Assembly (NCBI GenBank): GCA_025602905.1
Contig: JAHLKI010000012.1
Span: forward strand, 682,001-746,000
Direction: 5' to 3'
From: Phlyctochytrium arcticum
Lineage: Eukaryota; Chytridiomycota; Chytridiomycetes; Chytridiales; Chytridiaceae
Length of the DNA stretch: 64,000 nucleotides
Shown piece after piece: positions 19,406-52,800 of the stretch. Numbering within the stretch: position 1 is the first letter of the stretch; every line of letters begins with the position of its first letter. A model generated the notes under the pieces. That model did no database searches. It saw only the letters and a program-made list of their open reading frames with translations, and had not been told where the DNA came from. The position numbers and the translations under genes were made by a program.

Positions 19406-20701
19406 TCACGAGGAACCAGACGAGATGGGGGATGGGAGCAGCTCGGCCACTGACGGTTGGGGAAGAGCAGGTGGTGGTCTCGTCAGTGCTTTCTGCTCCT
19501 CGGCATCACCCCACTCTTCTTCAAAGAGATCGGTATAAACAGACTTGAGAAGGCGCGCAAACAAATATCCGTCGCCGTGATTCAACGCGGCGTCCACAGC
19601 CGAATACAGTTCACCGTCCAGGTTTGCCAAATGAAGCCGCTTCTTGTCGAATGTAATCCAAGTATCCAACTGAGACCATTCCGCGAGCGCTTCAAAACCA
19701 GGCATCGCACATGTGATCATACACCGGCGGTTGGCAGCTCTCTTGCACACACCGCACATCTTTCGACCCATCATCGTGTTCTCCCGCCAATGCAAAGCCC
19801 ATGAACGGAGCGCGACAGGCTGAATCCAGAAAGCACGATCGATGTATGTGGCAGGCCGACGGTTGAGAATGTAAGCCGGTAGTTGTGCTCCAGGACCAGT
19901 TTGATTGACTCGACGTTGAACAATATCTTCAACGCCCTTCTTTCTGATCCAAGACTTCCAACCAATCCGGGGACGTTCCCCTTCATTAAGATCCGCGACA
20001 CCGACGGCAGTCATCCAAGCTTCTATCTCCACAGGTTTCCGCAAACACCGTGGCAAGATGGCATTAATAGATAACTCAGAGACTCCAGGGTTGACATCAG
20101 CGTACATATCAATAATCTTGGCGAGAATGACACCATCTGCAAGTTTTTGGGTGGCCCTTCTTGCTGCAGGCAGACTGGCAAGCTCTGCGGTGTTCCTCTT
20201 TGGATGGTTGATGTGCTGGTCGTGCCCGTCGCCAAATTTCACAATCCTCCAAACTTCTCCAAGCAAGCTTAAACGGACTCTGTAGGTGCAACCGACCTTC
20301 TTACTCTCCCGCTTTCTCTTCGAGTTTGGAATGTTTGCTGGAGGCGACCCACCCTGACAACAATGAAAGATCACCATACGAACAATTTTCGGATTGCCCC
20401 AGTGTTCCTTTTTCTTCTCAGAAACAGCAAATCCCTCGGAAAGCGCGTACTGATGAACACCGTCAATCCCCTTTTCCATCGTGGCAAATTCAACATCCGG
20501 CGCAGCTTGAGGAAACCATGGAGCGTGGCGGGATGCGGCTTGCGCGATGATAGCATTTGCCAAAGCAGCTTGAGGGGCGGCCAGGCTACTGGGAAGAACG
20601 ATTGCCTGTTCGGGGGTCAACCCGACCACAGTGGCAACCTCTGTTGGCGGTCTTGCGCTGGGGCGTGCGATAGCTGTGTCTGCAGAATTGGCGGCTTCCA
20701 T
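19406..20701 (-). CDS. FAR1/MULE-type DNA-binding domain protein (431 aa)
   Basis: A single frame from ATG 20701. Residues 70-170 resemble the FAR1/WRKY-GCM1 zinc-binding fold found at the N-terminus of Mutator-like transposases and derived regulators: YALSEGFAVSEKKK, then CCQGG, a KKVGCTYRVRL box and an HINHP ending. No DDE transposase domain follows. Residues 290-345 carry further cysteines (MCGVCKRAANRRC) that may bind another zinc. It could be a domesticated transposase piece, a regulator, or part of a non-autonomous MULE. Assignment is by motif only. Confidence 0.5.
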   Translation of the reverse strand: MEAANSADTAIARPSARPPTEVATVVGLTPEQAIVLPSSLAAPQAALANAIIAQAASRHAPWFPQAAPDVEFATMEKGIDGVHQYALSEGFAVSEKKKEHWGNPKIVRMVIFHCCQGGSPPANIPNSKRKRESKKVGCTYRVRLSLLGEVWRIVKFGDGHDQHINHPKRNTAELASLPAARRATQKLADGVILAKIIDMYADVNPGVSELSINAILPRCLRKPVEIEAWMTAVGVADLNEGERPRIGWKSWIRKKGVEDIVQRRVNQTGPGAQLPAYILNRRPATYIDRAFWIQPVALRSWALHWRENTMMGRKMCGVCKRAANRRCMITCAMPGFEALAEWSQLDTWITFDKKRLHLANLDGELYSAVDAALNHGDGYLFARLLKSVYTDLFEEEWGDAEEQKALTRPPPALPQPSVAELLPSPISSGSS

Positions 20702-23593: not shown

Positions 23594-25999
23594 CTACCGT
23601 AATACGCAATCGGAGGTAACAGAATCAGCAGATACATGGGTTTCAGACCATTGTGACAATCTCGACGCAACATGTTTAGCCTTCTTCTGACTAAAAGCCA
23701 AATGAACCCGGACAAATCCGGAATCTGACCCAAAAAACATATAGCCCGGACACACAGCGACCCCACATTGCAGAGCAAGATCGAACGCTTCGTCATCGGA
23801 TGCCATCCCATGTTTCACCAGCATGTACATGGCTCCTTCTGCGGGCAGCGCTTTCCAACCGAGTGTTTCAGACAGCGCCTTGCCAATAACAGCTTGATTT
23901 TCTTGCAAGAGATTTCTCCATTCGCAAATGTGGTGCAAGTAGTCGTCGTACGAGTCCAGGATATACCGCGCAACGGCTTGCTGCGTCCAGTTGCACGAAA
24001 TGCAAGAGACATCGTGTGCACGAGTTACGGTTGCCAGTGTTTCGGGATCGCTTGAAAGGACATACCCCAGTCGCCAAGACCCAATGCACAGAGACTTGGA
24101 AAATCCTCGGACCACAAAAACATTTTTGGGAAATGGATAGGTGAAAGAGCAGAATTTGCCGGTGTCAAGGGTAAGGTCTGCGTACACCTCGTCGCTGATG
24201 ATGCGGCAATCGGGATATTCCTTTGCCAGTCCGGTCCACTTCTTCACCTCCCAGTTCCGCATAAGTCGACCAGATGGATTTCCTGGGTTGGTGAAAATGA
24301 CGGCATCCAATTCGGGCAGTGTCTGGAAATTCATTCGTTAGTTCTGCAGTGAAATGAGAATTGCCAGCCGATTCCTGTCTTTCCTCACCTTCTCAATCAA
24401 GTCAAAGTCAAAACAAAAGTCGCTCGTCATCTTCATATACTCAATTGTCACATTCCCCCCAAAAACACTACGGATCTGCTCCACATGATATGTATAGTAA
24501 GGAACAAAGACCCCAACGGTCCAAACGCGTTGGGTTTGCTTGGCTTGGCACGAGTCACGAAGAGCAAACAGTATTGAGCTAACACCAGCCGATACCCCAT
24601 TGACTGCCAACACGCAATCTGTTGGAAAGGCACCCAGCGCCAAAAAGTCGCGGTGCAATTTCTGCGCAGCCAAGCGATAGGAATGATCACCATTTCGCTC
24701 TCGGTACATGTGTAGGTTGGGCTGACCTGAATGTATCTGGGTCTCCAGTGCCAGCTCTGATGCATACTGTCGCAAGCGCAAGGGGGGATCCAGTTCCACC
24801 ATACCGGCCGCAAGGTTGACCACACCAGTACCCCGGCAGCACTCGTCGTAAATATCGCGCATGGTGCGAACACTGGAGGGAACAACTGTGGCCGATCTCA
24901 CAGACGCATGACGTGCGGCCGAAAGTTTTGTGCTTGTAAAAGCGTTCTTGCCCAGCGCTACGGGCGTGCTGTCACCGCCAAGTTCTTCACCAAGCTTGCC
25001 GAAGAATTCTGAAAGTTTTTCTACGATAGCAGATGCTGCTCTCTCTTCGGACTCACGGGCCTTTCCCGCGATGTGAGGTGAAACAATAATGCGGGGATGA
25101 TTCCGCAACGGTGAGTCCGAAAGTAACGGTTCGCTTTCAAAGACGTCCAAAGCTGCTCCTGCACAAGTGCCATCGTGTAAAACTTCCAGGAGAGCAGACT
25201 CGCACAAGACTCCACCACGGGCGGCGTTCACGAGTAAGAATCCATTCTTCAGTTTCCGGAGGGCAGCTATATCTAGGAGGCCGCGGGTTGAGGAGGTCAG
25301 CGGAATGCAAACAGCTAAATGGTCTGCAGTCTCCAGCAGTCCATCAAGAGTCTTGGTACTCTCCAGTCCATCGAATGTCTTGACGTATGAGTCGTAGAAC
25401 GCGACCTTCATACCCACACCACGAGCATTTCGCAAAAGTTGCTGACCTATTGCACCACATCCCACAATGCCCAGCACCTTGTTCCGCAAAACCACTTTTC
25501 GATCAGCAAGGTTTCGGGCCCATTCTCCGTTTTCCATGGAATTTGAAACTTCCTTTACGTTTAGGGCAAGTGATCCCAAAGCAAACAGCAGGTACTCGGC
25601 AACCTCGGAGGCACACCAGCCGGCGTTGTCGATTACTACCGCTCCAGCCGCTTCGCAGGCCGCTGCATCAATGTGGTTCCTGCCTGTTCCCTGAGCGACA
25701 ATCACCTTTGGCGGATGGGGTAGTCGGGACAGTACATCCCTGGTAATTGGTGTGAAGCTGCTTGCGATTACATCAAAACCCGTGCTGTTCTTTTCCTAAT
25801 TCAGAAGCGTATAAATAAACAAAGCATACTTTGTGAGATCTGCATAAATAATCCCTACCAGACGCCCACAGAGATCCCGCTCGGACGTGCACTCCCAAAT
25901 CTCAAGTTGCAGTGTGGATGCTCCTTGAGCCTTCCGTTGGGCAATCGACCGTTCATACACCCACTGACCCAGAATCTCATCGACAAACAGGATACGCAT
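23594..25999 (-). CDS. D-2-hydroxyacid dehydrogenase-aminotransferase fusion (758 aa)
   Basis: Exons 25999-25859, 25795-24389 and 24322-23594 join in frame; introns are 63 and 66 nt, the second with a CTAAC branch site. Residues 1-310 are a D-isomer 2-hydroxyacid dehydrogenase with NAD site GCGAIG, an Asp at the end of beta-2 (FYDSY, suggesting NAD over NADP), catalytic Arg in AARGG, Glu in DVFESEP and His in SPHIAG. Residues 340-750 are a fold-type I class I/II aminotransferase with NPGNPSGR, SDEVYADL, PLP lysine in GFSKSLC and substrate arginine in FVRVHL. All catalytic residues of both halves are present. Inference: it oxidises an aryl 2-hydroxy acid to the 2-oxo acid and transaminates it. 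The reverse direction, making an aryl-lactate, is an alternative. Confidence 0.85.
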
Positions 26000-26649
26000 C
26001 CTGACTTGATTGGACGGTTTTCTTGAGTGAGACCGCAAAAGTAAAGATACCGATCGTGAAGCAACAGGTTCCTGGAGTGGATGTTGGAGCTATGGGGCAG
26101 GATTTGGGTGTGGAGCTTGTTCAACGGAGTTCTTGAGCCAAGCCAGAAAAGGCGCGCGGGGAAAGTGGCCCCACCACGCGCATGCTGGATCCCTCTTGCT
26201 TCCGCATAGAATCGGTATATTGCTCTGGATCTGCCGTAAGTGCCAAAGTACGCCGTCTTGATTGCCTTTCTGCGGACACTCCGCGACATTCCGCGGACTT
26301 TCCGCGAAACTGGAAACACCCGCCAACCCCGTCAGCAATGCACGTGACTGACGCGTCGAATATGGGGAATATGGGAATATCCAACGAGCCAAATCAGCAT
26401 TTCCCTTCACACACATACCGACTGTATTCAACTTGAGGATGATGTCCAGTCCTTCCGCAAACGGCTCAAACCGGCCAGAGGAGATTCAGCCCGGCAATTC
26501 CGCAATCTCCGCATTCAGCGCGTTGAAGAACCAGGTACATCAGTCTGAGTCAGCTTCAAATGGACCGTTAAAAGCTTTCGCACGCCGAGCCGTTCGCCCC
26601 ATTTCCTTCCAGCGGCTGTGCACTTCACAACCCTCCTTGCCTGTTCACT
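26000..26649. promoter_or_regulatory. Divergent promoter with TCCGCGGA motifs
   Basis: This segment separates the dehydrogenase-aminotransferase gene (minus) from the PF10014-type dioxygenase gene (plus). Bases 26270-26310 hold a cluster of GCGGAC, CCGCGA, the palindrome TCCGCGGA (26290-26297) and TTTCCGCG. CGG-type half sites are typical of Zn2Cys6 regulators, two of which are in the cluster. Regulation is inferred. Confidence 0.5.
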
Positions 26650-27725
26650 ATGAGCCCCATCCCCGTCAAATCCGCCAATCAAGGCCTCACCGAAGAGACC
26701 CAGATCAATACGCTCCTCCGCGACTGTCCTGCCCAAGAGAACGACACATATACGTTGCCAAAGACCGTGGAAGAGAACCTGCTCTCTCACATTACGCATC
26801 TTCGGACAACAAGTCATATCCGCTTCAATCCTAGACAAAATCTCGGACTGTCCGAGGATCAGGTTGAGCAAGACTTGCAACAGTTGCGATGGGAATTCGC
26901 CAACTTGTCAACAGATATATGGGTACCTTCCGATTGGAGCCGCTTCCGAGGTTATTCGAGAGCCGTTGTTTTGCCGTGGGAAAGCCCCTTGCGAGTCCGC
27001 TACCTTCCACCCTATCTCGATTCAAACGGCAACGAGCAAGTACCGTATAACCAGGGTAAGTTGAGCGTACGTTCGTTCGTTTACCATCTGGCTTTAACTA
27101 AATCATTGTTTGTTCTCATCACTTGCTTGGTCTGCCCACATAGGCCCTTTCAACCAAGACTGCAATAATGTCCGACGCTGGTACGACCCAATAACAGCTG
27201 AGACTCGCCAGCTCGCCCTGCTCAATCGTATGATCCTGGCCGATGTCGCGCTCTGTGATTGGAGTGAAGACGAGTTGCGGCACCCCATCCTGGTTGGCAT
27301 CCACTTTGTCAAGACTGCACCCAACCCCGACTGGCCAGTTGGCATCAACACTCCTAATGCACTGCATCAAGACGGTCACAAGTTTTCCTTTGTTCACATG
27401 GTTCAACGGGTAAACGCAGCTGGCGGGGACAACATTGTCGCAGCTGTGCAGCACGGCAGCAAACACCCAGACGACATTCCACAAGAGGATATTCTCGCCA
27501 ACTTTCTCTTGGAGGAACCCCTCGATTCGTTTGCTGTCTATGACGAACGATGCACTCATTTCGCAGGTATGCTCTTGTCATCTCTTTACCATTCCCAGCG
27601 TTCCAACTTTTGTTCCTTGCGTAGGAGCTGTTCTTCAAGCTCAACCAGGACATGACAAGCCAAGTGAGCGTAGCGTGTTCATTTTAGACGTAGAGCCGAT
27701 GGTAGCAGCCGTTTGTCCCATCTGA
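26650..27725 (+). CDS. 2OG-Fe(II) dioxygenase, PF10014-type amino-acid hydroxylase (309 aa)
   Basis: Exons 26650-27055, 27144-27566 and 27625-27725 join in frame (930 nt). The fold resembles the 2OG-Fe_Oxy_2 family, which includes free L-isoleucine 4-hydroxylase. Iron ligands fit H and D in ALHQDGH and a distal H in RCTHFAG. A family-typical NxxGGDNIVA stretch lies between, and the protein ends with the usual SVFILDV strand. The role is probably hydroxylation of an amino acid precursor for the NRPS, which is inference. The start at 26650 is the first ATG of this frame; an upstream exon cannot be excluded. Confidence 0.75.
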
Positions 27726-28600
27726 CCTCCACCCACTAGCTTTTAGACATATTTAGACCCCCATTCGTATAACATTCCCCTGATACATATTTTTCCTCTT
27801 TGCAATACATACCTCCCATCTGCTGTTCTGTCCGGCATCCAGCGTCTTCCCGGAACCTAATTAAGGATTACTGTCGCCGCAAAGTTTCCAAGATACATTG
27901 AACATGAGTTAGTGGTTGCAGACACAACCTTAGCTTTGGAAGCACCATGGAAAGGAAGTGACCATGCGCTTTATAATAGGCCTTTGCTTCGATTGGATAG
28001 TCATTAGACGGTCAAGCTTTCTTGAGCCACGAATAAGGCCGGCGAGGCCAGAAGCCTTTGGAGAAATATACGATGGCCTTTGTGCTGACTGATTGTTGGT
28101 CTGAGTTTGGCCTTTGACCTCTGCCAAACCGTAGTTGTTGTTCGCACTTTAATCCTCACCCGGACGATCTACGGACTTTACAGCCGTAAGATCCTGCGTA
28201 AGATCGGTATCTTTCACAGCACACCAAAGTGCTCCGTCTGGTGTTTCTTGCGCAAACTTCCGCCGCATGGCTCTTTCGGCGGACAGTGTAGCTTACATTG
28301 GACAGGACAGCGGAACATTGCATTTATGGTTGGGGAGTTTCCCAGCATTAGCGAAGGACTTCCGCTGGATCTAGCGGAAAACACCTGCGACAACTGGGCG
28401 GAGATGCTGACTGTGTGGCGCGGTGTGGCGTGGGTCAGCCAGCGGAATCTCCGCTCCCATCTTGAGCTGATTGTGAGAAGTGTTCAATGTCCTCGCGGTA
28501 GCTTCAATATGGCCACGTCCGTCTTAACTTATACAAGTCTCGCGCCGATGTTTCTCACCATTCCTACGCACTTCCAGACTGTATCGGTTACGCGACTGAA
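27726..28600. promoter_or_regulatory. Intergenic promoter with inverted GCGGA pairs
   Basis: TTCCGCTGGATCTAGCGGAA (28360-28379) is a perfect 7-bp inverted pair, and AGCGGAATCTCCGCT (28441-28455) is another. Single TCCGC or GCGGA copies occur near 28260-28310 and 28400. The plus-strand open frame 28107-28610 across this region lacks motifs and is probably not a gene. Confidence 0.5.
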
Positions 28601-30246
28601 ATGGCATTGAACAAACCTTTGTTGCAAAATGGAGATATCGACTTTGGCGGCCTGGACCTTCACTCCGGAACCGCAAATTTGAAAGTGAGTATTTGTTAAG
28701 TCTTTCCAATTATTGATAAGTCAAGCTGATTTGCCGACTTTTGTATCAGAGTTTCTTGCATGAGCTCGGGGCGAGGACCCTGCCAGAAAGATGCGATGGT
28801 CTAGAGACAGAATGCATCTTTGGGCTGAACGACGGCGCCTTCATTAGGCTTCTTTCTTCAACGCCAATTGCCGGGGTGTGGATTCCGCGAGTCTTTTTCC
28901 GTTCACGATGTTCCATTGAGTCTGCGTTCCCCAAATCGCAGCATTCCATTTTCGATGACGGCAAAGCAAGTTTTATCTATGTCCGCTACGTCCCGGATTG
29001 GACCGAGCAACGGCTGGAAATCTTTGTAATGGACTCTTCCTCAGATGGCTATTTGTATGACGCTCGCTTAAGTACGTTCCGGGCCGCTGGGCGAGATACC
29101 GGTACCAACAAGCAATATCGGAATAGTTTGATTGATCGAGTAGATCATCTCGCATTTGCCGTCCCCAACGGGCAGCTGGACAATGTCACTTTATGGTTCC
29201 AACAACAACTGGGTTTTGTGCGATTTGTTATGGATGGAGAATCACAACGCGGTGTCGAGGTTCGTCAAGCCGGCAATGGGATGAGAATGATTACCCTGCA
29301 GCATGGGACATTTTTTCTGGTGGTCTGTGAGCCCCTGGATGACCTTGTCGGACAAGTGACAGATTTCGTTAATCTTCATCGCGTTGGAGTGCAACACATT
29401 GCGTTCAGTCCTTCGGATATCATTCAAGTTGTATCATCTGCCAAGGCTTCAAAGTACCTGGAATTTGCACAACCTAGTAAAGCGGCGTGGGAGGAGCCCT
29501 TGTTGATAGCGTCAAAAGAAACTTCTGTCGAGATCATGGACAAAGTTGTTTCCCGCAAGGAGTTGGGAATCTTGACTCAAGTGCGAGGTAGCAGCTCATC
29601 ATATGAATCGCGAAAGGATGGCAAGACCGGAGGAATTCTATCGCAAATCTTTACCAAGCCATTTGCTTCTGACTGCTGCATATTCTTCGAGCTGATCGAA
29701 CGGTTCAACTTTGATGGCTTTGCCCCGAAAAGCATTGCGGCTCTCTTTGATTCGATGCAAGTTGATTTTTCCATTCTTGTTGCGGATAGTGTCGCTGGCA
29801 GTGGACGGCGAAGTCGGGACGATGATGCTGTAACAAATCTGACGATGGAGCTGGAGAAGTGGGTTGCTAAAATCAAGAACGTGGCAGGGTTGAACGTGTC
29901 TTGTCGCACCGGAAACTTCAATTCACCTGCGCAGCTTGACATATTCTTGCGGCATTCTGCGGAGCGTTACCATGTTGTGTTCTTACACAATCTTTCCGCG
30001 ACGGACGAACTTGCAAGAGCAGCTGGCGAACAGCTGCAGCTAATTCATTCAATTGTACGTGCTCCTCATTTCCTTTTCCCAATGAATCACTACTGAACAC
30101 TTTTTATCCAGCCGCCTGCACCTTCTTCTGCAACCATGAAAGCTGGACAGTTCACAGGGATCCCTGCATTCGTGTCATCCGGTATTCAAAAAGCCATTAC
30201 TCCTTATCTTCGCGCCAAATTTGAGAAAATATCAGGTACAGCTTAA
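28601..30246 (+). CDS. HPPD/4-hydroxymandelate synthase-like dioxygenase with C-terminal extension (507 aa)
   Basis: Exons 28601-28684, 28750-30054 and 30112-30246 join in frame (1524 nt). Two VOC (glyoxalase-like) halves are present. The iron triad is intact: His in DHLAFAV, His in GVQHIAF and Glu in FFELIERF. This family converts 4-hydroxyphenylpyruvate to homogentisate (HPPD) or 4-hydroxymandelate (HMS). The HPPD substrate motif PLNEP is absent; the segment reads MRMITLQHG...CEPL. The GNF of the C-terminal helix is replaced by KSI (GFAPKSIAALF). About 120 extra residues follow the usual end and I do not recognise them. QIFTKP near the Glu ligand is retained, so product specificity cannot be assigned from sequence alone. 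Confidence 0.8.
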
Positions 30247-36281: not shown

Positions 36282-38039
36282 CTACACAGACGCTGCGGCG
36301 GCTGCCAAAAATGACCTAAATGTATAGGCGGCTCCTAAATCAAAGTACAATTTCGTTAAGCTCTCGTCAATGTCCTCAATTGCTGGATCTGATGTGTTGG
36401 GGTCTATAGCTATTTGACGGATAGACGTGACAGGCATCCAAAGTTCGGGAAATTCCTCTCGCGCAAGTCTCGGACGGACCGCGGAGCGTATCTCTTTGAT
36501 CTTGGAGAATGCAATATGCGGTGGTATAAGTGGAATGGTAAGTGGGGCACTGTCGGTTGTGCCTAGTGCCGTGCCTTCCAGACTGACGAATGCTACCAGA
36601 GTAAAGTCGTTTGAATCCAATGCTACCGGCAATCTTAAAACCCGAGCTTCCCGGCACTCTCCATAATGACAGATTGTCTCCTCCACCAAAGCCAAATCCA
36701 TTGGACTCGTTCCTCCTAGGAGATTATGAGAGGGGGTTGTATTTTCAGGCTTGCGTGTGAAGCGAGCACCAAAATACTGCCCATATATTTGTCGGGCAAG
36801 GGCTGGTACCCGCTCTTCCAAGCACGGCTTGGAAATGAGAAGAGCAGAACACATTGCAGAACTCAAGCTCAGTTGCTTTGGATCCTCAGACTGACTGGTC
36901 ATTGGCTGAAAATACACAGCATGGACGGCCGAAGCGCTCGAAATGACATTTTGAAATTGCTGCATGTTCCACTGGTACTGGCGAAGCGGATGTGATTTCA
37001 GGTCGTCGTTGATCTGACAGATGGTGTCTGCGTGGCGGTTCTGTTTGTGAACCTCGACAGAGACGAGAAGGTCATCAACCACTCGTGAGTTTAGTATATT
37101 TGTAACCAGAACAACTTCGTGTCGCTTGATTGTTGAAAATAGTTCTTCCTCGGACAATGCGGGGTGTAGCATCACTTGAGTAATAGCGGGGAGCTCCATC
37201 ATGGCCAGCTTCTCCTCAAAGGTAAGCACAGCGTCATATCGAAAGGAGTTCATTTCGCTTTGCAGGGAACCTGCTTTTAGCTCGCAAACTGCAGAGTGGA
37301 AAAGTCCTCTTTCCATCAGAGAAACAAAATATCGCGGGTGTATGATGAGCTCATTGTCTTCGGTCCACTTTTCGTTGCGGGATTCAATAATCTCGGTTGC
37401 TGTAACTGTCGCATGAGCAGGATGTTGAATCACCGATCGAGCAATGGCTACAGTGGTATGAAGCACGTCCCTAAACTGACGATCCAGGACGTCACCCACA
37501 AAAATAACCCCATCTTTGGCCGTGTACTCCCTGGTACGAAGTAGGATATCTTCAAGGTGCTGGAGGTTTGGAAAATATTGGACCACAGAGTTTAGGATAA
37601 CAACATCGAAAAGGGTTTCCTCGGCCAAGCCTGCGAGGAGATCTGCTGTTTCGTGCCCGGCACCTGTGTAGAATTTGCAATCCCGCTCCGTTAAGCCGCG
37701 CTGGCGGGCATCATCTTCAATGTTCTGGATGACGGCAGGAGAAGGGTCAACTCCCACAAAGAAAGAGCAAGATGACGCGATGGGAAAGTAAATCAAGCCG
37801 GTTCCACATCCAATTTCCAGTACTCTTGGCTTTTTCGTCTTGAATGGTGGAAGATTCTTGATTTTGTTGCAAGTGTTTTCGATCCAGTCCGACATTACTG
37901 CTTTCGGCATAGGCTTTGTCGTGTAGCTGCTGTCCCAGCACGCTAGATTTTCCGAACCTGAAGCTTTGAAGAGGGAATATCGAGCATCATAAATCTGAGT
38001 CCATTCGTTGACATATGCTGCGTCAGAGTCGGTCGGCAT
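36282..38039 (-). CDS. Stand-alone NRPS-derived methyltransferase with A-domain remnant (about 585 aa)
   Basis: Start chosen at ATG 38039 (MPTDSDAAYVNEW); the frame is open about 60 bases further with no other ATG. Residues 10-270 closely follow the N-methyltransferases embedded in NRPS adenylation domains: WDSSYTTKPMP, SAM site VLEIGCGTGLIYF, acidic VGVDPSP, and VVILNSVVQYFP. The last 150 residues look like the small C-terminal subdomain of an A domain (ETICHYGECREARVLRLP...FTLVAFVSLEG), ending in a degraded A10 (DPNTSD instead of PxxGK). It therefore looks like the MT and A-tail of an NRPS module split off as its own gene. It probably methylates the peptide or a loaded residue in trans; a relic is possible, though the frame is intact. 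Confidence 0.75.
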   Translation of the reverse strand: MPTDSDAAYVNEWTQIYDARYSLFKASGSENLACWDSSYTTKPMPKAVMSDWIENTCNKIKNLPPFKTKKPRVLEIGCGTGLIYFPIASSCSFFVGVDPSPAVIQNIEDDARQRGLTERDCKFYTGAGHETADLLAGLAEETLFDVVILNSVVQYFPNLQHLEDILLRTREYTAKDGVIFVGDVLDRQFRDVLHTTVAIARSVIQHPAHATVTATEIIESRNEKWTEDNELIIHPRYFVSLMERGLFHSAVCELKAGSLQSEMNSFRYDAVLTFEEKLAMMELPAITQVMLHPALSEEELFSTIKRHEVVLVTNILNSRVVDDLLVSVEVHKQNRHADTICQINDDLKSHPLRQYQWNMQQFQNVISSASAVHAVYFQPMTSQSEDPKQLSLSSAMCSALLISKPCLEERVPALARQIYGQYFGARFTRKPENTTPSHNLLGGTSPMDLALVEETICHYGECREARVLRLPVALDSNDFTLVAFVSLEGTALGTTDSAPLTIPLIPPHIAFSKIKEIRSAVRPRLAREEFPELWMPVTSIRQIAIDPNTSDPAIEDIDESLTKLYFDLGAAYTFRSFLAAAAASV

Positions 38040-38099
38040 CTTTCGAAAGTCGTTGGTCAGTTGAAATTGGGAAAGAGGTTGGTCGAAAATACCTTGCAC

Positions 38100-38951: not shown

Positions 38952-40081
38952 TCAAGACCAACAGATTAATTTTGGTCGTGGGCGGCCAGCGGCAGGATTG
39001 GCGGGCAGCAGTCCAACAAAAGAGGAGAATGTCAGACGTGAGATAGGCTCGCGATCTGCAGGATGCTCGATGCTTTTGACTTCATGCATGTTGCGCGAAT
39101 TGAAGAGCGTTAAATCTCCAGTGCGAGCGGGGATCACTCCTACTTGCGTGCCAATGATGCATTGCGGATCATACGCGTAGTGATCCTCGTTCTTGAACTT
39201 GGCTTCCAGATCTGGAGACCATTGGCGACTGTATACTACCGTGCTGCCACCCCGCCATATTGGAGTTAAGATCTACGTGAAAGGGGAAATCAACTTAGAT
39301 AACGCATGTATTTAGCAGTATTGTGAAACTTACCACGTTCCAAGTGATTTGACCACTGATGTGTCCAATGAGCCATTCCGGTCCAGCTTCATGCGGTGCC
39401 CAGTCAGTGTGAATCTGGGTACCCATGTTGATGGTTCGAAAAATTCCTGAGTAATACTTCCGGTCGGCAGTTTCACTTGCTACTTCTACGTCCATGTACC
39501 GGCCGGCGGCCACTTGCAATTGAGACATGATACGCTTTTGCAGATCAAAACCTAGCACATTGTTGATGGTATCGTTGTATCGCGTGCTCGCAGCCTTCTC
39601 AAAATACAAATCTTTCTCTGCGGTAAAACAGGAGGGCAGTAGAGAGTTAGTATGTAGCGTTCCATCATTTTTGGTCAATGTAATATCTACCATTTTGGTG
39701 GGCAAATTGGGCAACCCCAAGTTTACCAATAGGTGGAGTGACATTTTTCCCATAAAGCGTAAAGTCTGGATGATTGATGGCATGCTTTGCTATCAACTCG
39801 CATTCTTCAGGAGTGCACAGCTGGGGAACTCTGATGGATGGGATCTTGTTTGCAAAGAGCTGAGACAGGGATGTTCCGGTAAGCGATTGTTCTTTGGAGA
39901 TGATCCAGGACTCGGCCGGTGCCCAGGAGGGAGCAATGTGATTGAAGGAATAGTGGGGACCGGTTGTTTGATCTATCTGATGACTTGAAGCGAGACTAGC
40001 ATGATGTCTACAAGGACGACGCAATGTCGGGTAGCAGGCGCGGCGAATATGGAAAACTTTCTGTCCTGTTTGTTTGATCAT
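38952..40081 (-). CDS. Fe(II)/2-oxoglutarate dioxygenase, second family (331 aa)
   Basis: Exons 40081-39691, 39617-39334 and 39272-38952 join in frame (996 nt); introns of 73 and 61 nt have canonical GT-AG ends. The HxD motif is HTDW (after MGTQI), the distal histidine is in NMHEV, and the co-substrate arginine fits SRLTFSSF. An ITWNVILTPIWRGG strand lies between, as in prolyl-hydroxylase-like enzymes. The first 40 residues are arginine-rich with few acids, so a mitochondrial signal is possible. It probably hydroxylates or desaturates the peptide or a precursor. It is unrelated in detail to the dioxygenase at 26.7 kb. Confidence 0.75.
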
Positions 40082-40800: not shown

Positions 40801-42204
40801 ATGCCGAAAGACGCTTCCCGCAGCATGAGCCGGGTTTTGTCCTGCGACCAGTAAGTATCGAATTTGTCCAGTGGCAAGGCCACCCAGTTCCATTAATGTA
40901 TTTGTCTTTAACATTTCCTCACGGAACGTATCTAGCTGTCGGCTCAATCACCGAAGCTGTACGCGAGAAGAGCCATGTTCCGTTTGCGCTGCAAAGGGAA
41001 TTGATTGTACTTACACCCGGCAAAGGTATGGTCTAGGTTTACTTCGACCAGTTTGGTATGGAAAAAAAATGGATCTTTATTTACACCAAGTGATTCGATT
41101 AGCAAGAATAACGTGCGTCGGAGGGTAACTTCCCCAGCTCGTCCAGCGGACAAAGCATTCCCAATAATTAATGCTCCAGACCAACCCCCGGACCCATGGT
41201 TCATGCACTCGAAAGAAGCCGGTCAAAATCAGACGCACACCATACCACAGGAGCAAGCTCTTATTGACGCAGCAGTCGAAGACTTTCTCAAGTCGATGGA
41301 GAATGGGCAACAAATCGGACCAATATGTCCTTCTGATTCAAGACCAACCTGTTACCCAACCCCCGCCGTAATGGGAGGTCGCAGTGGATCACTGTCGTCG
41401 GATCTCCACTTTGCCCTTCCGCCGTCCACCGATGGGGTACCCATTGATTCACTACATTTACAAAGCGGTCCACCGGAATATGATGTGTGGACAGGACTCA
41501 CAGGAGGTCCTCCAGTTGAGGTGGCTACGACACAAAATCATAATTCAACACTCCACCTGACCGATGCATCCAAAGTGAACGGTACTCCAGCAAAACGGTT
41601 GCCTACATCTCGCGCTACGACAGAGGAACTTAATATTCATTCTCCGACTGCGAACTTTCCACCGCCTGGATCACCAATCTCTCCGCCGTTGGTGCAATCA
41701 CTAGCACTCCTTCTGTGGAGGCATCTTCAAACGAATTTGAAACCTTTAGCCAATACGTTGCCGTCACCATCGAAGGAATCGAGTTCGGTCAAACACTTAA
41801 TGTCGATGACTCAATACTCCGGAAGCCCTAAGCCATTGGCAGATGATGATATGTTTGGTGCAAGAACCTCCGCAGAGAGTTTACCACTACCCCCGCTTCC
41901 GCCTCGCCCGACTACAATGACTGAAACAGTGGATTTTGAGCGACCTCCATTCTCTGACGAACCTGTGAACAATCAGTATCTCCAAGGTTATGAGCAGACC
42001 CCATTGCCCATCACATATGCAAGGCGACAAATGTCACAAAACAACACACAAATTAAAGATGACTTGAGCGGCGAATCAAGATTTGCTGCCCGTGCGAGGC
42101 AATCATCACTCCCGCCGCGCCCTACTACTCTTACTGTGGAGCTTGGCTATTGTCTTTCCTGCGCCAAGAGAATGACATACTCCGACGTACTTCCGGTGTC
42201 GTGA
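40801..42204 (+). CDS. Zn(II)2Cys6 transcription factor, paralogue A (413 aa)
   Basis: Exons 40801-40850, 40936-41025 and 41103-42204 join in frame (1242 nt). The zinc cluster C-x2-C-x6-C-x5-C-x2-C-x6-C starts at CDHC (split by intron 1) and ends GIDCTY. A basic region (KNNVRRRV) follows. The rest is rich in Pro, Ser and Thr with PPLPPRP stretches, a LLLWRHLQ helix and a terminal GYCLSCA motif, as in paralogue B. It lacks the large fungal TF middle domain. It is probably a pathway-specific regulator. Confidence 0.8.
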
Positions 42205-42942: not shown

Positions 42943-43880
42943 TTATACTACGAGGGTTTTAATCGCTTCGGCAATCTTTTGGCAGGAAGTTGAGTCTTTT
43001 GGAATGTCGTGCCCAGAGTCATGAAGTATCTTGCTGTGTGCTGCGTAGCGTCGTTCCATTGCTGAGCATGTTGCCAGTTCAATGGCGGGATCAAATATGT
43101 GCAATGACGGATAATCTAGTAACGCTTCGGATTTGTAAGAATGAGCATCAGTGGTGGTCACGAGCTCCGCCTTGGACGGTGAGACAGAATTTGGTTTCTT
43201 GTTGGTCGACTTGAAAAATCGTTGCATGGCCTTCTTTTTGCGTTGCAGAAAACTGGCGATTGCGAGCCTCATGCTTTCTCGCTTCAGAGGAACATTCTTG
43301 TCTGTTTCTGCTTCAACGATCTGGTCGGGATCAGTCGTACCTCCCGGGTTCAAAAATTCTGTCATTGGTGACCCGGAAAACAAGATGCTTGAGCCCCAAT
43401 ATCTTTCAATAATGCCTTGATGGCTAAGATTATCCATAAGTTCAATCATAGCAGCGCCTGGAAGCAGAGAATACATACGTCAGTGCTCCAGACCAGATGA
43501 TCCTACTGAAAATCTCTTACCTTGCGAGAACCCAAGTATTCCATCAATTCCACCCAAATTCTGGATTGTTTTCTGGATCAAATCAACTGATTTTTGAAGA
43601 TGTAATGATGGAGGTGATTTGTCGGTCGAGAACCACTCGTACCAATCCATATCATAGAACTTTGTTAGATCTACAAGATGCGTTAGCAAAATTACAGAAG
43701 CGGAACCATGCACCGAGAGTTACATACCAGGGTTGTCCTTGGGAAATGAGGCCTGTGTGAATACAAAATCCACATCGTTCTGTAGAAGATGAATGATTTC
43801 CCTTAGCTGCTGCCTCAAGTGAAGCTTGTTTGAGCCTTGTCCGTGAAGACAAAGTACTTTCTTCTTTTCCTTCTTTAGGG
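42943..43880 (-). other. NRPS C-terminal FSH-type serine hydrolase domain
   Basis: It starts KKVLCLHGQGSN directly after T5. It has the nucleophile motif GFSQG, a candidate Asp in SLHIFDPA and a His in DSGHDIP, matching the FSH1 alpha/beta-hydrolase family. An insertion rich in Lys and Ser (about residues 160-200 of the domain) is unusual. It probably releases the peptide by hydrolysis or cyclisation. Confidence 0.78.
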
Positions 43881-46800
43881 CGTGGAAAGAAGGGGATGGG
43901 TTTTCGTGCTTCACTACCACATCTGAGCCGTTTCGAATCACAAGGGACATTGCCTCCAAGCTCGTATGCTTAAATATAACTTCCATCTTCAGCTTGACTC
44001 CGAAAAGACGTTGAATGGAAGCCATTAGCTTGGTGGCATTCATCGAGTTGCCGCCGAGTTCAAAAAATGTGCTTTGGGGATGAATCTGCGCTGACTCGAT
44101 TCGAAGGATCGCAGACCAGAGTTGAGCCAGCTTTTGCTGAGTTTCATCGACAGGTGCCATGGGGTTGGCCTCTAGGTTTGCTGGCTCTTTACATTCCCGA
44201 CTAGTCAGTTCTGCTTCCAAGCTGCGAGTATCGGTTTTTCCGTTTGGAGTCATTGGAATAGTGTCAATGGTAATAACTCGTGCAGGGATCATGTAATGTG
44301 GGAGGGTCCGAGCCATCGCCTTCTGCAATAAACTTGTGGCAACACTTGACGGGCTTACGAACGTCACCAACTTGTTGTCATAAACAATCGTAGCCGCCGA
44401 ACGAACTTGTGGGAATGAGAGGGCCACCCCAGTGATCTCATTGAGATCAACCCGGTAGCCACCAACTTTTCGTTGTTCATCTATTCTTCGAACAAACTGC
44501 AAGTCCCCAGAAGGCAACAACCGAACAATGTCTCCAGATGCATACATTGTCTGCGGTATGGAAGCGAAGGGATTTTGGACAAACTTTTTTGCAGTAAGTA
44601 CCGGATCATTCAAATATCCAGCGGATACGCCAAGACCAGTCGTGTACAGCTGTCCTTCCATGCCCTCAGTGACCGGCTTCAGATGCTCGTCCAGAACATA
44701 GTAGCAAGTGTTTGGAAACACCGTGCCCAAGGTAATCTGCATCCCTGATTTTAGCGGTAAAGTGCACGAAGATGTCACCGAGGTTTCGGTCTTGCAAAGA
44801 GGTTTTAATTAGATGAAACAGATGTGACAAACGAACGATGCAAACTCACCGCTCCATAGTCAACATAGAAAGTACTGGACTGGCCCCATTTGTCGACTAG
44901 AGACTCGGGACAAGTCTCACCGACAGCCAAAATGACTTTAAGGTTCGGGAACTCTGAAGGTTCCAACTCAAGCAGACCCGTTGGTGTAATATTGATGCAG
45001 TCTACAGCCTTTAGCATTTCAAAAACAGAATCTTCGTGGAAGATCAATGTTGCGCCCGTAAACCAGGTGCCGTAAATTTCTTGCAACGCTCCGTCGAAAG
45101 AGATGGCGAGAAACTGTCCAACACGTACTCCCGGTCGGCAATGAGTCGTAAACGGATGTCCGAGAATGTTGTTGACAATGCCCTTTTGACGCAGAAGGAC
45201 GCCCTTGGGCTGACCGGTGCTACCAGATCTATCATCATAATGTTAATTTTGACAACTTTCTGTGGTCATCCCAACAAAAAGCTCTTACGTGAAAATACAA
45301 TACGCAACCGAGTCTGCTGTGCTGAGCGTTTCCAAATTCGCGCTGCAGGTTCCCGATTCGTTCTCTAAGATGTCCTCTATCCGCTGCATACACGGAATAT
45401 ACCCATTCAAAGAAGCAATTACCAGCTCGCTCCGCTTGGTGTACAACAGGACCTTTGGCTGAGCTTTCGCAAGCATGTAATCAATCCGTTGAGCAGGAAG
45501 ATTACTCGCAATGGGCACGCATATGCCACCTGCTATTTGAATCGCCAACAAAGCAACATAGTATTCAAACGAACGACCCGCCACAACGCCTACGAATACC
45601 CCAGGAACGACGTCCAACTTTCGCAATCGATGGGCCAGAATGTTGGCTTTCTCATACATGACCGCGTAGGTCATCTTTCGTGTACCACATTGAATGGCAA
45701 TGGCTTCCGGAGCGCGCGCCACAGCCGCCAGAAAGCCGAGATGGATCTGATCGAAGGGTAAATCCAATGTGATGCCATTTGCTATCGGCCTCGCGGATAC
45801 GATCTGGTCCATTGGGCCGATACTGAGAAGATGGATTGATGAAAGTGCGCGACCAGGTTCCGCTGCCATCATCTTTAGAACCATTTGAAAGTTGTCCAAG
45901 AATAGGTCGACGAACTCCATGTCAAATTTGTTAGAGTCATATTGAATGCAAATGCCAGATTGCTCGTCCGCGTTGTGATCAACTTTCAATGTGAACGCGA
46001 AATGAGGGGAGTTGTTCTCTTCCAGTTCAATTTCCGCAGCATCAGCAAACAAGTCTTGTGTATCGGACGACAAAGTGTTGCTAATGAAATCAAAGTAGAC
46101 TTGTAGAGATGCAACGGCAATATCACTGGAGGTTAAAACCTCTTCGAAAGGAATGTCGATGTGTCGGAGAACCTTTTCAATATTTTGCGCGGTATTCCGC
46201 AGGATATCAAACATTTCATCATCCTCCCCACTCTGCACTCGCACGAGTACGGTGTTCAAAAAGCATCCCAACGTTTGGAAGCCGTCCGCGACACGTCCTC
46301 TGAGAGTGACCGGAGTTAGAATTCCAAAATCCTTGGAGCCTGTATATCTGAAAGTAATAGCAGATTAGAAATCTTGTAGCATCAGAGAAATGTAACACAA
46401 AGACATACCTGGCAAGTGTAACTTGGTAAACCGCAAAGAATCCCATAAAAGGTGTAATTCCAATTTTGGAGCATAGCGCCAGGAAAGTCTTCTGAACCTC
46501 AGGTTCCAGAAGCACCTGCCGACTCCATGTTGCATGTGCTTGTCCGGTTGATGCAGCTAGCTCCGGGAGCTTGATTTCTGGCAAGTCTTCTAAATATCGG
46601 CCCCAAAACCGGCGTTGTTCATTCCAGAGTTTCTTTTCCGAAGCTTCCAACATTGTGCGATGCATCCTCGATGCTGCAATGTACTGTGGCGGAGAAGTTC
46701 TTGGCAGAGTTCGGACTCCCTTCAAGGCATCTAGGTAGCGTGAGGAAAGCTCACTCCACAGCAACGCAGTAGAGATTTCATCGACCGAAATATGGTGAAT

Positions 46801-49800
46801 GTTTAGGTAAATTCCAGTGTGAGCTGGCAACTTGAAAACTTTGAATCGAATTGGAATCTCCTGGGATAAGTCGAACACGCGCTCGTTATCCTCTGTACAC
46901 ATGCGACGCATTGTTGTTTCAGCTTGGCTGTCGCTAGAGAGATCCATACATTCAAAATCAATGCCAGCGGGACTCTGCACCTCTTGTAATAATGTCGAAC
47001 AGTCAGAGTTCAATTTGTAGGTAGTTCGAAGAATTTGATGGTCTTCGCAAATATGTTGCATTGTCTTGATGAGTATGCTACAATCCAGTGGCTTCGTTAA
47101 CCGTAAGAATGTAACATGATAAGCGCTCGAATCGTGCAGACAATGCGCTGCCCACATCCGCTCCTGCGCGTATGAAGCTGGATAATTCTGTAAGTCCGCA
47201 GTGGAAGGGACCGCGCTAGACTCAGGTGTCTGCGGCGGCTGCGGTTTGCAAAGTAAGGCACATATATCCCCGATGGAATCACAGTGATGGATGTCACGGT
47301 CTAGGATTTCCATTTCAGATTTGAACCCGTTTTTCAAAGCTTGAACAAGTCTATTGACAGCCTTCATAGTGAGGCGGCTTGCAAAATCATCCTTTAGCGT
47401 CCATATGATGTCCGGAAAGTTGCTGCGGAAGAGTCCTAGAACAGTTGCTTCGACAGCTGCCTTATCACTCCCCACAACGTCTGAAGCTCCGTGGGTCTCA
47501 TGGGGGCCAATAGACTTCAAGATGGCGCTGGTTGACCGAGCATTGGATAAATCATCGTATGAGATATTCGCATGGTGGGCTTTGCGTAAGTAGGCAATAA
47601 GACGCATAGCTTTGTAGGAATCCAGTCCATGAAAGAACAAGTCATCGTCCATCGCAAGAACTGGCTGCCCCAATATTTTGCGGATTTCTCGTAGGATAGG
47701 AGATGCCATGAGCTCAATCGGGTGCTTACTTGTAGGGGAGTCGGGCAATGAGGTTGGAGTAGTAACTTTTTTGAGAAGCAGAGTCCGGTCAACCTTTCCA
47801 CTCACAGTCACTGGAAGCTTAGTCATTGGAATAACCATCTTTGGCAGCATGTAGCCAGGGAGCCTTTTGGAAAGCGCAGATGTGATATCAGAGGGAGTTT
47901 TCACAATCTTTGACGAGGTAGTATCATCCCGGAAAGTAATCCATGCAACGAGGCCTACACTGGAATGTAACGCCACACATACGTTGTGTACACCAGGAAG
48001 CTGCAGAATGGCATGCTCGATCTCTCCCAACTCCGTGCGTCGGCCATTCAGCTTGACCTGACAGTCTGCCCGTCCAAAGTATTCAAATAAACCGTCCCGA
48101 CGACGCCGGATAAGGTCACCTAAATTAGACGCAATCAGACACATGCAACGTATATTAAGAAGAAACCCCAGTAATTAACGCACCAGTCAAGTACATTCGC
48201 GTGCCAGGAATGAACGGGTTGTCCACAAATTTTTCAGAGGTGAGGAGGCTGTTATTCAAGTAGCCCCTAGCCAACTGTCCACCAGATACGGCTAACTGTC
48301 CCACCACACCATATGGTACAGGCTGCATTCTCTCGTCAAGAATGTAGCATCTGTTGGTGCTACCCTCTCTGCCCAGGATTGCGGGGCTCGAGGAAAGGGA
48401 CTCTTTATGCGAAATCGGGCAGTGTACCTCAGTTGGACCTATTGTTGCATGACGCGTCAGGCTCAATATCATCAATGTAGAAAGTATGATCTCATACCAT
48501 AACTATTGAACAGAGTAATTCCAGCCCAAGTTTTGATCAACGTTTGGGATATCGGCTCACCTCCTGAGACCAATTTGATGACACTTGGTACCTCTTCGGG
48601 CGACAGAAGGGCGATAACCGATGGCGTCAGTTTCAAAAAATTGACGGAGAGTGCCCGTACAACGTCAGCCAGTTGGCTCCGCATAATGTCCGTGGACGCA
48701 ACGCAAACAGTGCCTCCCGCGAACAATGTGTGGAAAATGTCCGTCAATGTGATGTCAAATGTGTAGCTGGCAAAGTTCAGCGAGCGAATTTTGTGGTCCA
48801 ATCCGTACATTTCGGACAGGAAGCGGTAGTGATTGACAGCCATCTTGTGCTCACATAAAATTCCTTTCGGTGTCCCCGTGGTGCCCGAGGTCGTGAAGAT
48901 ATACGCAAGAGCATCTATGCCAACCTCTACATTCGTATAGTTTCCATCCAAGAGAGCAAGGGTTTCTTCCATGCTTTCAACCTCCAGTGTGCGGAACCCT
49001 TTGTTCGTAAAGCGGCTACTGAGCGCCCTATTCGTTACAACGAATGGTGCGTCCAAAGCTGCCATCGTAGCGTTGTTTCGTTCCGACAGTTCAGGAGCTG
49101 GGTCCAGAGGAATCCAACAACAACCGGCCTTCATGATGCCTATCATCCACCACACTGCATCAAACGATTTTTCAAGACAAAATGGGATTCTCGTTTCCGG
49201 AGGGTAGTTTTCTTGCCGAAGGAATTTAGCAACTTGGTTTGCCTGAGCAACATGATTTAGAAACCTTTGCCAGGAGCGAGCAAAAAATAACAACAACAAC
49301 AACATACCCGTTGATTGAGTTCTGAGTACGAGATACGACTTCCATCTAGATGTTCCAACGCTATTTTATTCGGTGACTTCTGGCACTGTTCTTCAAAAAG
49401 TCCATGATACGTGTCAGAGGTATTCTCCCAAGGCCGGCTGCAAGATAGGACTGCACGCTCCTCATCGGACAGAATATTCAAGGCACCCACGCTGCTGTCA
49501 GAGTCTTCGCAAACTGCTATTACAAGCTGCTCAAAGTTCTTGACGACCTGTGCGATGAACTCGCTACTATATGCTTGACTTTGGTAACTGACTTGCAATG
49601 TCATGTCGCCTATACTCGCTCCTTGGGTCATTCTGAACGACATTTGAAAGTGACCGCTGCCAGGTGGAGCTATCTGTATAGATTCGCTTGTTTTGAAGAT
49701 GCTGTTCTCTGTTTCAGTGTCGTATTCCTGGCTGGCATATGAGAAACACATCTGCAGTTCCTCCAAGCGGGTCGCGGCGGATCCCTTGAAAACGCCCCTC

Positions 49801-52800
49801 ACAATGTTTTCGAACGGCACCGATTGATTCAGCATATTATTCACCTCGTGGTAATTGCGGTGGACAAAAGACTCGAACTTTTCCTGGGCGTCAATTCGAC
49901 ATGTCAAGGGCAGCGTGTTCGTGCAGCAGCCCAGGACGTCTTCGAGTGATGTCATTAGCCCCCTATCTGTAACAGGGCAGAGAACAGCAAATTCAGCCGC
50001 ATTTGCGTAGCGGAAGAGCAGGATTTGGAACAAAGACAACCATCCGACAAAATACGAAACATTTTCTTTATCGCAGAGAGAGTGGAATGCCGCAACCGCC
50101 GGGGTGGATAAAGTGAAAGTCTTCTCAACCGTCGAATGAGCTCCAGTGGCCATTTCATGCGCAGACAGTGGAAATTTCGCTTCTTGGATATTCTTCAGCT
50201 TGTCGTCCCAAAACGAGAGCATTTCCGCTTCGTGCGTCTGCAAGTAGCTATTGTGTTGCAACGCAAAATCCACGTAGTCAGAGTCAATTGGTTCCAAGGT
50301 CAACGGTTCATCCCCGACAATGTTCAAATAAATATTCGAAAGTTCGTAAAGGACAGCATTTAGTGTCCATGCATCAGCGACGGAGTGATGCATATTGAGA
50401 AAAATCGCAAAGTCGTTAGTGCCCAATTTGAAGACAGTAAGGCGTACTGGCATTTCTTTTTCCAAATCAAAGACGTGAGCTGCATCCTGGGTACACGTTT
50501 TTTGCAATGTCAACATCGGGTCGGGACTACTAGATAGATCCGCATAGGCAAATGTGGAAGTAAGGCGAGCATGTACCACTTGGTACAATTGATCCCCAGC
50601 CTCAAATGTTGTCCGAAATACTGCATGCCTCTCACATATAATTTGCATTGCCTTGAGCAGTGCGTCCGGGTCCAAGAGTGAGCGAACCCTTTTGAGCTCA
50701 AAGACATTGTAAGTCCCATCCATATGCTTCTGCTGAGCCATCCACATGCGCTTTTGCGCGGAAGACGCCGGAAATCGTCCAACACGAGGCTGTCGTGTCA
50801 GTTGCTCGGAACCGCAGGCTGCTGGGCCAGGCTCATGTAAATCTGTAGAATGTGCCATGGTGATGCTCTGCTCCAGATATTGTGCCAGTTGGCACACATT
50901 CACACAGCTTCTTAAAGTTGATATCTTGACCTCGCTTTCGAACTTTTGTCTCAGCAGACCGACGAACCGAATTGTGGAAAGGGAGTTAAGTCCCATCTTC
51001 AGCCACGAATCTTCAACGGTGAAAATCCTGCCTTGTCCGATAATGGAGCCCAGTAGCGTCATTAGAACTTTTTCTGTTTGGCTGAACTCGGTACGCAAAA
51101 TTGTCGGGGTCTCAAGTTGGCGATGAATTTGCATCTGCTTCAAAGCTTTCCGGTCGATCTTTCCACTCGGATTGAGTGGCATACGCGGGCGGTAGATCCA
51201 AACCGATGGAACCATGTAGAAAGGCAGCGATGTCTCAGCGAGTGACAACAACTCTGCGTCGATTGCATCTCTGGCATGCGCGTTATCCTGTTCCTGATTC
51301 TTCCATCCATAGAAGCAAACCAAGGAAGGTTCACGTTCTCCTTGTAATGTCAGCGGCATGACGCACAAAGATCCAACGCGAGAATCATGTGATAATACCG
51401 ATTCAATCTCCCCGCATTCGATGCGCTGTCCATGGATTTTGATCTGATTGTCCCGTCGCCCCAAGATCATAACCTTGCCGTCATGCCAAAATTTGGCTGA
51501 GTCCCCAGTACGATAAATCAGTCCATACTTGGGGTGATCCACCCAAGCTTTAGCTGTGAGCTCAGGGTTGTCCAGATATCCTAGTCCAAGCTGGCTGCCA
51601 CCCAGACACAATTCGCCCACGACTCCCACAGGCACCAAGCTGAGTTCATCATCCAAAATAAACTGCAACACGTGGCTGAACGGAAAGCCAATAAGATTGA
51701 TATTGCGTTCCTTGCTATGCACTATATGTGAGTGTGAGAGGCAACAGGTTTCGGATCTGAAAAGCCGGGGTCAGGTTTACTTGCATGCAGGAGGAAAATA
51801 GAATTGGAACGTACGGTCCGTAACCATTTTGCATATGAGCGACATCCCCCCAGCGTTCTACGACAGTTCTTGAGATGGGTTCACCACCGCAGTCCATTTT
51901 CCGTACCGACGGAACCTTCTCGGGGCGCACAAGAGCAAGAACAGATGGTGTCAATGCCAAGAAAGTCACTTGCATTCGAGCGATAACACCTTCCAAGTCA
52001 CTCGAAAGATCATCTTTGGTTGCCATACACAATGTCGCACCTACAAACAGCCGACGCGATTAGCCAATGCAAGATACTTGAAACGGAAGAACCTGCCTGT
52101 AGTGAGAGTTGAAAAGATATCCATTATACAGGTATCGAATGTGAAAGTAGCAAAGTTGAGATGCCGGTCCGTGTCGTCATGTAAAGTCCGCTCGCAGAAG
52201 CTCGTCCGCGCACATACTAAAGCTCTATGAGGGATAAGGCAACCCTTTGGTTCTCCAGTTGATCCAGAAGTAAAAATGGCGTAGGCCAAGTTGTCGCCAC
52301 TACCCTTGTTTTTATTTGGCTTGCCAAATACCGCATTCAACTTTGACTCGTCGGCCATGAATTTGTCTGTATCAAGCACTACTAAAGGAACTTCCAACTG
52401 ACCCGACAAAGAACCTGCCCACTCCGACACGGTCAGAACAAAGTTGCTCCTGGTTTGCCTTAGCACCGCATTGATCCGTGCTCTAGGCCAGGAAGGATCC
52501 ACTGGCACAAATGCACCTCCTGCTTTTAAAACGCCGAGCACCAGCGGTACCATATCCATGGTCTTCCCGATACATATTGGGACAAGAACATCATGCGTAA
52601 CGCCGTGGTCAGCTTGGAGATGACAGGCAACTTTGTTGCTGAGTTTATCCAGTTCCACATATGTCCACTTTTGTCCATTAAGATGCTCCACAGCAATCTT
52701 GCTCGGAGTTCTCTGCACTTGGCTCTCGAACATATGATGAATGCATAATAGAGGGTCAACAGAAGGAATATCCCGCTTCCACTGAGATTCTAACGAAGCA

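Follow-up and report, generated by a model that had tools for sequence, protein, structure and literature searches.

Two genes at one end of a putative peptide synthetase cluster

The chytrid Phlyctochytrium arcticum has a genome of 31.5 Mb in 91 contigs, and we analysed one stretch of 64,000 nucleotides from it (C12:682001-746000, called the window here). The window carries a gene for a VOC dioxygenase related to 4-hydroxyphenylpyruvate dioxygenase (HPPD) and hydroxymandelate synthase (HMS), a gene for a dehydrogenase fused to an aminotransferase, and a nonribosomal peptide synthetase (NRPS) gene (Table 1). The region from the first two genes to an ABC transporter looks like an NRPS gene cluster, with those two genes at one end of it. 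A sequence-only reading of this DNA had proposed that they make an arylglycine for the NRPS; its observation of both genes is confirmed and its interpretation is partly supported by the analysis described here.

The dioxygenase had been described as having a full iron triad and as lacking the HPPD substrate motif PLNEP, and both points hold: the iron ligands H161, H244 and E342 are all kept, and the HPPD motif PxNEP reads VVCEP, with Cys221 in place of the Asn. We compared its residues with those of 57 aligned rows, 25 of HPPD type (the genome's own HPPD, six database matches and the best match from each of 18 genomes) and 32 of HMS type (20 from loci fetched by an HMS query and 12 from a genome survey, with some repeats and with neighbourhoods not each checked; one row, Chloroflexota L057/L076, is intermediate). 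At the column of Ile357 every HPPD row has Phe, while the residue is Ile in 29 of the HMS-type rows and Val in the other 3, and the dioxygenase shares its DHxA with 32/32 HMS-type rows where 25/25 HPPD rows have DHxV. It lacks both a Pro found in all 25 HPPD rows and the Asn of PxNEP, found in 24 of them. The position of Ile357 is that of F337 in an HPPD whose F337I form, according to a passage of PMC3739788, lost about 98% of its activity and formed hydroxymandelate and an oxepinone besides homogentisate. By its VVCEP motif, by Ile357 and by its TIGR01263 score (77.2 bits, cut-off 277) the dioxygenase falls outside HPPD, and it keeps Phe340, Phe361, Gln230, Gln243 and Gln327.

A structure model of the dioxygenase has a mean pLDDT of 56, with residues 161-270 and 321-370 at 71-88; aa 1-150 are poorly modelled, as are the last 140 or so residues (aa 370-507), an extension for which a Pfam search gave only a weak DUF6213 match (0.041, below the cut-off). 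The 50 Foldseek matches listed for this model are HPPD or HMS structures, including 7YVV, 2R5V and the triple mutant 3ZGJ, and the modelled HPPD/HMS fold holds for the catalytic half of the protein only. An ordinary HPPD, with VNEP and GNF, is encoded elsewhere (C6:1066394-1067779); this is the separate housekeeping enzyme for which a search had been suggested. Its presence rules out the window dioxygenase as the genome's only HPPD, one of the outcomes that would have counted against the earlier proposal, and tyrosine breakdown can thus do without the window gene.

The earlier description of a single protein that joins a D-2-hydroxyacid dehydrogenase (approximately aa 1-325) to a class I/II aminotransferase (approximately aa 351-758), with the catalytic residues of both, also proved sound. 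Exon 2 of this gene (1407 bases) contains no stop and spans the dehydrogenase into the aminotransferase. In two metagenome proteins from JGI, P0128 and P0129, the domains likewise come as dehydrogenase and then aminotransferase; both proteins are 43-45% identical to the window protein in the aminotransferase half, and their N-termini look incomplete. P0128 is colinear with the locus across both domains, in both copies of the locus (the second copy is described below), and a search for P0128 in viral contigs gave no match. The stop-free exon, the shared domain order and the colinearity lead us to reject a fusion created by misannotation. The public model P0008 (430 aa) loses part of the aminotransferase half to splicing and ends prematurely. 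We think that this model is wrong because the stretch removed from it holds residues that are invariant in five aligned family members and because P0128 is colinear over both domains; P0008 may rest on evidence outside this analysis.

The dehydrogenase half matches PF02826 (E 2.9e-46) and keeps GCGAIG together with D182, which we take to be the NAD-type Asp, and R240, E267 and H288, which we take to be the catalytic set. The aminotransferase half matches PF00155 (E 2.2e-25 for the exon-3 ORF alone) and keeps the pyridoxal phosphate (PLP) residues N528, D560, K592, R600 and R721. When a profile of five relatives was compared with the PDB, aspartate, aromatic and tyrosine aminotransferases ranked first.

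The pocket serine and the direction of the dehydrogenase

Bacterial HMS gives an (S) product and D-type dehydrogenases usually use (R) substrates, and a caveat had been attached to the arylglycine proposal that its stereochemistry would have to differ. The residue that bears on this is a pocket Ser (S201 of AoHmaS), which is present in 57/57 comparison rows, including 32/32 of HMS type, and is kept in the dioxygenase in no alignment that we made. It is probably replaced by Met206, the residue found at the Ser column in three MAFFT alignments (sharing rows) and in two profile alignments. In printed alignments this position is occupied by Thr in AcmP1, titled an (R)-4-hydroxymandelate synthase in its PDB entry (7YVV), and by Met in the 3ZGJ mutant, which we provisionally take to be an (R)-inverted enzyme. 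According to a passage of PMC12822336, wild-type SyHMAS has a strong preference for the (S)-enantiomer, which S204V turns to (R); S204 is taken here as the equivalent of AoHmaS S201 because the paired substitution I219V would correspond to AoHmaS Ile216. In the case of AoHmaS, S201V was designed to block the binding of 4-hydroxyphenylpyruvate and to redirect the enzyme to phenylpyruvate (a passage of a review, PMC12388565). The stereochemistry of HMS is plastic, since the Hms protein of S. coelicolor gives 99.6% (S) product from phenylpyruvate and a near-racemate from the p-methoxy analogue (a passage of PMC3720870). From the loss of the pocket Ser we predict, with moderate confidence, that the product of the dioxygenase is (R)-mandelate and that it is made from phenylpyruvate rather than from 4-hydroxyphenylpyruvate. 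Because a D-specific dehydrogenase would require just such a product, the stereochemical caveat loses force without being removed.

The best NCBIfam model for the dehydrogenase half is that of phosphoglycerate dehydrogenase (PGDH; TIGR01327), and in the PDB it matches a phosphoglycerate dehydrogenase best and McyI (9JNQ) second best. The half differs from SerA itself: its TIGR01327 score is 185.7 bits, under the cut-off of 454, and Ala81 stands where the PGDH structure 1WWK has an Arg that presumably binds phosphate. McyI belongs to the microcystin cluster, and we take it to be a stand-alone protein from an NRPS cluster with a different substrate. The SERA (PGDH) group is one of only three subfamilies of 2-hydroxyacid dehydrogenase (2HADH) with natively oxidising members, as given in a passage of PMC6303947. 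Oxidation of a D-2-hydroxy acid is the likelier direction for the dehydrogenase half because it lies near SERA. A genome-wide profile search for PF01070, the FMN oxidase family, gave four matches, on C36, C17 and C14, and none in the window.

A possible route to phenylglycine and the explanations that compete with it

Our preferred interpretation, which we hold at a little short of even confidence, is that the two genes supply an arylglycine to the neighbouring NRPS, phenylglycine being the likelier member of that class. The HMS-like iron enzyme would decarboxylate phenylpyruvate (or 4-hydroxyphenylpyruvate) and hydroxylate its benzylic carbon to give (R)-mandelate, the dehydrogenase half would oxidise (R)-mandelate with NAD+ to phenylglyoxylate, and the aminotransferase half would convert phenylglyoxylate to phenylglycine. 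The amino donor would probably be Phe or Tyr, regenerating the starting keto acid in a cycle of the kind that operates in the bacterial pathway. In its favour are the kept iron triad, the HMS-type Ile357 and DHxA, the missing pocket Ser, the PGDH- and McyI-like dehydrogenase half with its NAD-type Asp, the PLP residues and PDB matches of the aminotransferase half, the Asp of the FD motif kept in all five adenylation (A) domains of the NRPS (by eye), and the separate HPPD. The relationships of the proteins, their catalytic residues, the fusion, the clustering with an NRPS and the second HPPD are observed, whereas substrate, stereochemistry, direction and product are inferred.

The proposed route resembles the bacterial 4-hydroxyphenylglycine (Hpg) pathway (HmaS, Hmo and HpgT) in that an HPPD-superfamily iron enzyme is followed by an oxidising step and then by an aminotransferase, with an NRPS close by. 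In contrast to the bacterial pathway, the chytrid would use a D2HADH-type NAD dehydrogenase, fused to the aminotransferase, for the FMN oxidase; the window is without a PF01070 match, (R)- and not (S)-mandelate is predicted, and the host is a fungus. The dioxygenase shares its catalytic-domain fold, and the replacement of the usual Ser, with AcmP1 and with the engineered (R)-selective SyHMAS S204V; it differs from them in its very low identity and in probably having Met, not Thr or Val, at the Ser position. For the dehydrogenase half, the D-mandelate dehydrogenase of Rhodotorula graminis offers a fungal, NAD-dependent precedent in the 2HADH family, with the substrate proposed here, (R)-mandelate; the chytrid half is nearest PGDH and McyI and is fused to an aminotransferase. 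McyI is a further example of a PGDH-like dehydrogenase, and P0128 and P0129, known from metagenome sequence alone, are the examples of the dehydrogenase-aminotransferase order.

Several observations weigh against this interpretation. The TIGR01263 score given above is well short of its cut-off, the dioxygenase is 20-24% identical to 15 aligned relatives, and the HMS profile scores 66.1 bits (two stretches summed) against 67.3 bits for the HPPD profile. Support for an HMS-type enzyme comes from Ile357 and DHxA and not from overall similarity, which is no nearer HMS than HPPD. A phylogeny with HPPD and HMS references, as had been suggested, was built from 53 of 58 rows (five HMS-type rows were omitted as repeats); the end branch of the dioxygenase is 9.66, its placement is without support, and because of this very long branch the tree gives it no firm position. 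The pocket residues Met208, Val219, Cys221 and Ser356 match neither HMS nor HPPD well and Phe361 is HPPD-like. The register around the pocket Ser is uncertain: phmmer pairs (five shown) set the Ser against Gly205 in four cases and against Met208 in one, and hhalign places a gap there. Moreover, the product of AoHmaS S201V is given as (S)-mandelate in a passage of the review PMC12388565, which conflicts with a general inversion by loss of the Ser.

The fusion protein and the NRPS contribute further difficulties. In a passage of PMC6303947 the 2HADH subfamilies are mostly reductases, and the R. graminis D-mandelate dehydrogenase falls in the GHRB cluster, a different subfamily from that to which the chytrid half is nearest. 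The suggestion that a dehydrogenase replaces the FMN oxidase gains from the kinship with PGDH and McyI and from the absence of PF01070 from the window, and loses from the prevalence of reductases. The best NCBIfam model for the aminotransferase half is GntC, a PLP cyclodehydratase (122 bits, cut-off 415). Among the ORFs of at least 200 codons in 36 bacterial HMS loci, in which the presence of hpgT was not confirmed locus by locus, none matches the aminotransferase half at E 1e-3, and for this reason we do not call it HpgT. A protein search with the HMS query returned no close relative except the window's own protein, so P0128 and P0129 are without a demonstrated HMS partner. The five A domains have the codes DVAGWIAIL, DVAAHSAID, DTMADGG.., DITKVGSCP and DGQNLVD.. 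(read by eye, two incomplete), none of which resembles what we take to be the bacterial Hpg code, DIFHLGLLCK.

Among other explanations, one reverses the fusion protein and separates its role from that of the dioxygenase. The aminotransferase half would remove the amino group of Phe or Tyr, and the resulting keto acid would be reduced by the dehydrogenase half to a D-aryllactate that enters a depsipeptide, with the HMS-like enzyme making another unit. This would accord with the reducing habit of most 2HADH subfamilies and with the frequency of aryllactates in fungal depsipeptides. We regard it as unlikely: the dehydrogenase half, with its NAD-type Asp, is nearest to the natively oxidising SERA and to McyI, and the clustered HMS-like enzyme is left unexplained. 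The A domains also speak against it. The Asp of the FD motif is expected in A domains that load amino acids and not in those that load hydroxy acids, and it is kept in 5/5 A domains here (by eye; across an intron in the second module), which argues for amino acids as their substrates. Another explanation assigns to the PLP half the activity of a GntC-type cyclase or lyase, acting on an amino acid that the adjoining 2-oxoglutarate (2OG) oxygenase would have hydroxylated. GntC is the best NCBIfam PLP model for the PLP parts of the three relatives scanned, P0128, P0130 and P0131, as well as for the window half. We consider this improbable, because the scores are far under the cut-off, the PDB profile search ranks aspartate, aromatic and tyrosine aminotransferases first with no GntC-named chain in the best 60 of 80 (some are named just 'aminotransferase'), and a partner joined to a hydroxyacid dehydrogenase would be expected to act on a keto acid.

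Two further explanations concern the dioxygenase. The same three steps might act on a non-benzylic or aliphatic keto acid and yield some other chain-shortened amino acid, a possibility raised by the great divergence of the enzyme, by a pocket that differs from HMS and HPPD at several positions, and by the PF10014 gene between the two genes, whose family includes amino-acid hydroxylases. It is countered by the retention of Phe340, Phe361, Gln230, Gln243 and Gln327 and by a passage of PMC3720870, in which the rate of S. coelicolor Hms falls 1000-fold to more than 100,000-fold when the keto acid is aliphatic, and we judge it to be quite unlikely. A diverged second HPPD that makes homogentisate would belong to the same superfamily and would accord with an HPPD profile score that equals that of the HMS profile, but it would have to lack the Phe and Pro of 25/25 HPPD rows and the Asn of 24/25, to coexist with the ordinary HPPD elsewhere in the genome and to be clustered with an NRPS; we hold it to be very improbable.

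The preferred reading, an arylglycine made for the NRPS, has a wider form: a distinct eukaryotic pathway to arylglycines, in which a naturally (R)-selective fungal mandelate synthase and an NAD-dependent dehydrogenase-aminotransferase fusion, in place of an FMN oxidase and a separate aminotransferase, would feed a chytrid NRPS. We put this forward more tentatively still. No fungal arylglycine or HMS pathway is described in any title or abstract opening listed by our searches of the open-licence PMC literature. A passage of PMC6978743 discusses mandelic acid among the metabolites of endophytic fungi and cites only heterologous synthases, and the phenylglycine-making enzymes that appear in passages of the cited literature are bacterial. 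Streptogramin antibiotics contain phenylglycines, and semisynthetic beta-lactams are made with D-phenylglycine as a precursor (abstract of PMC7089894). If the wider reading is true, the chytrid would have a convergent fungal route through the other enantiomer of mandelate, with two of its steps on one polypeptide and no cofactors beyond NAD and PLP once the iron enzyme has acted; it might serve in the biocatalysis of (R)-mandelate and phenylglycine, and it would give a concrete starting point for work on chytrid natural products.

The rest of the cluster and its second copy

Between the dioxygenase and fusion genes lies a gene that the sequence-only reading had not noticed, for a 2OG-Fe(II) dioxygenase of family PF10014 (E 1.5e-19 for the exon-2 ORF). 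Its HilB-like NCBIfam score is 31 of 350 bits, and the PDB matches of its product include, weakly, L-isoleucine-4-hydroxylase. A second 2OG-Fe(II) oxygenase, of the WelO5 family, carries an HTD motif, which we take to indicate the hydroxylase rather than the halogenase type. An ORF with a NADAR domain (35369-35830) also lies within the cluster region.

Table 1. Genes of the proposed cluster, with positions counted from the first base of the window.
Feature	Position	Strand	Details
Dehydrogenase-aminotransferase fusion	23594..25999	-	758 aa; exons 25999-25859, 25795-24389, 24322-23594
PF10014 2OG-Fe(II) dioxygenase	26650..27725	+	309 aa; exons 26650-27055, 27144-27566, 27625-27725; start codon uncertain
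HPPD/HMS-like VOC dioxygenase	28601..30246	+	507 aa; exons 28601-28684, 28750-30054, 30112-30246; TIGR01263 77.2 bits
SAM methyltransferase domain, stand-alone ORF	36282..38099	-	C-terminal stretch resembles the C-terminal part of an NRPS AMP-binding domain (by eye)
WelO5-family (PF22814) 2OG-Fe(II) oxygenase	~38955..39800	-	E 2.2e-9, above cut-off; exons joined by eye, borders approximate
Zn(II)2Cys6 transcription factor (Zn_clus)	~40829..42201	+	E 1e-6, above cut-off; limits approximate
Five-module NRPS	43500..60461	-	A-T-(C-A-T)x4 with FSH1-type hydrolase end; exons unspliced; extends beyond 43500
ABC transporter, membrane region	61652..62980	+	traced for the membrane region

A block of about 45 kb that includes the cluster (C12:704218-749078, starting at about 22.2 kb of the window) is also found on another contig (C57, compared over 1-72564) at 97-99% identity. 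To the left of the block C57 has no match to the window, and the ORFs there include long repeated ones; to the right it has weak matches to many places in the genome. The C57 copy may be a haplotig or allele, or a segmental duplication. Between the copies the base changes in the three genes amount to 8 synonymous and 9 nonsynonymous, with no insertions or deletions: 2 synonymous and 3 nonsynonymous changes belong to the HMS-like gene, 4 of each type to the fusion gene and 2 of each type to the 2OG gene (whose model is one base too long at its 3' end). These changes are too few to prove constraint. A public protein from the C57 copy, P0001, has the identical 507-aa model of the dioxygenase, with two residue differences.

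Outside the cluster, the window contains retrotransposon pieces at 10328-14535 (gag, aspartyl protease, RT-RNaseH and integrase) and an ORF at 19406-20701 that matches a FAR1 DNA-binding domain slightly under the Pfam cut-off and is possibly transposon-derived. A second NRPS locus in the genome (C53:41428-55957) has condensation domains in an unbroken frame of 3356 aa, whereas the NRPS gene of the window is broken by introns.

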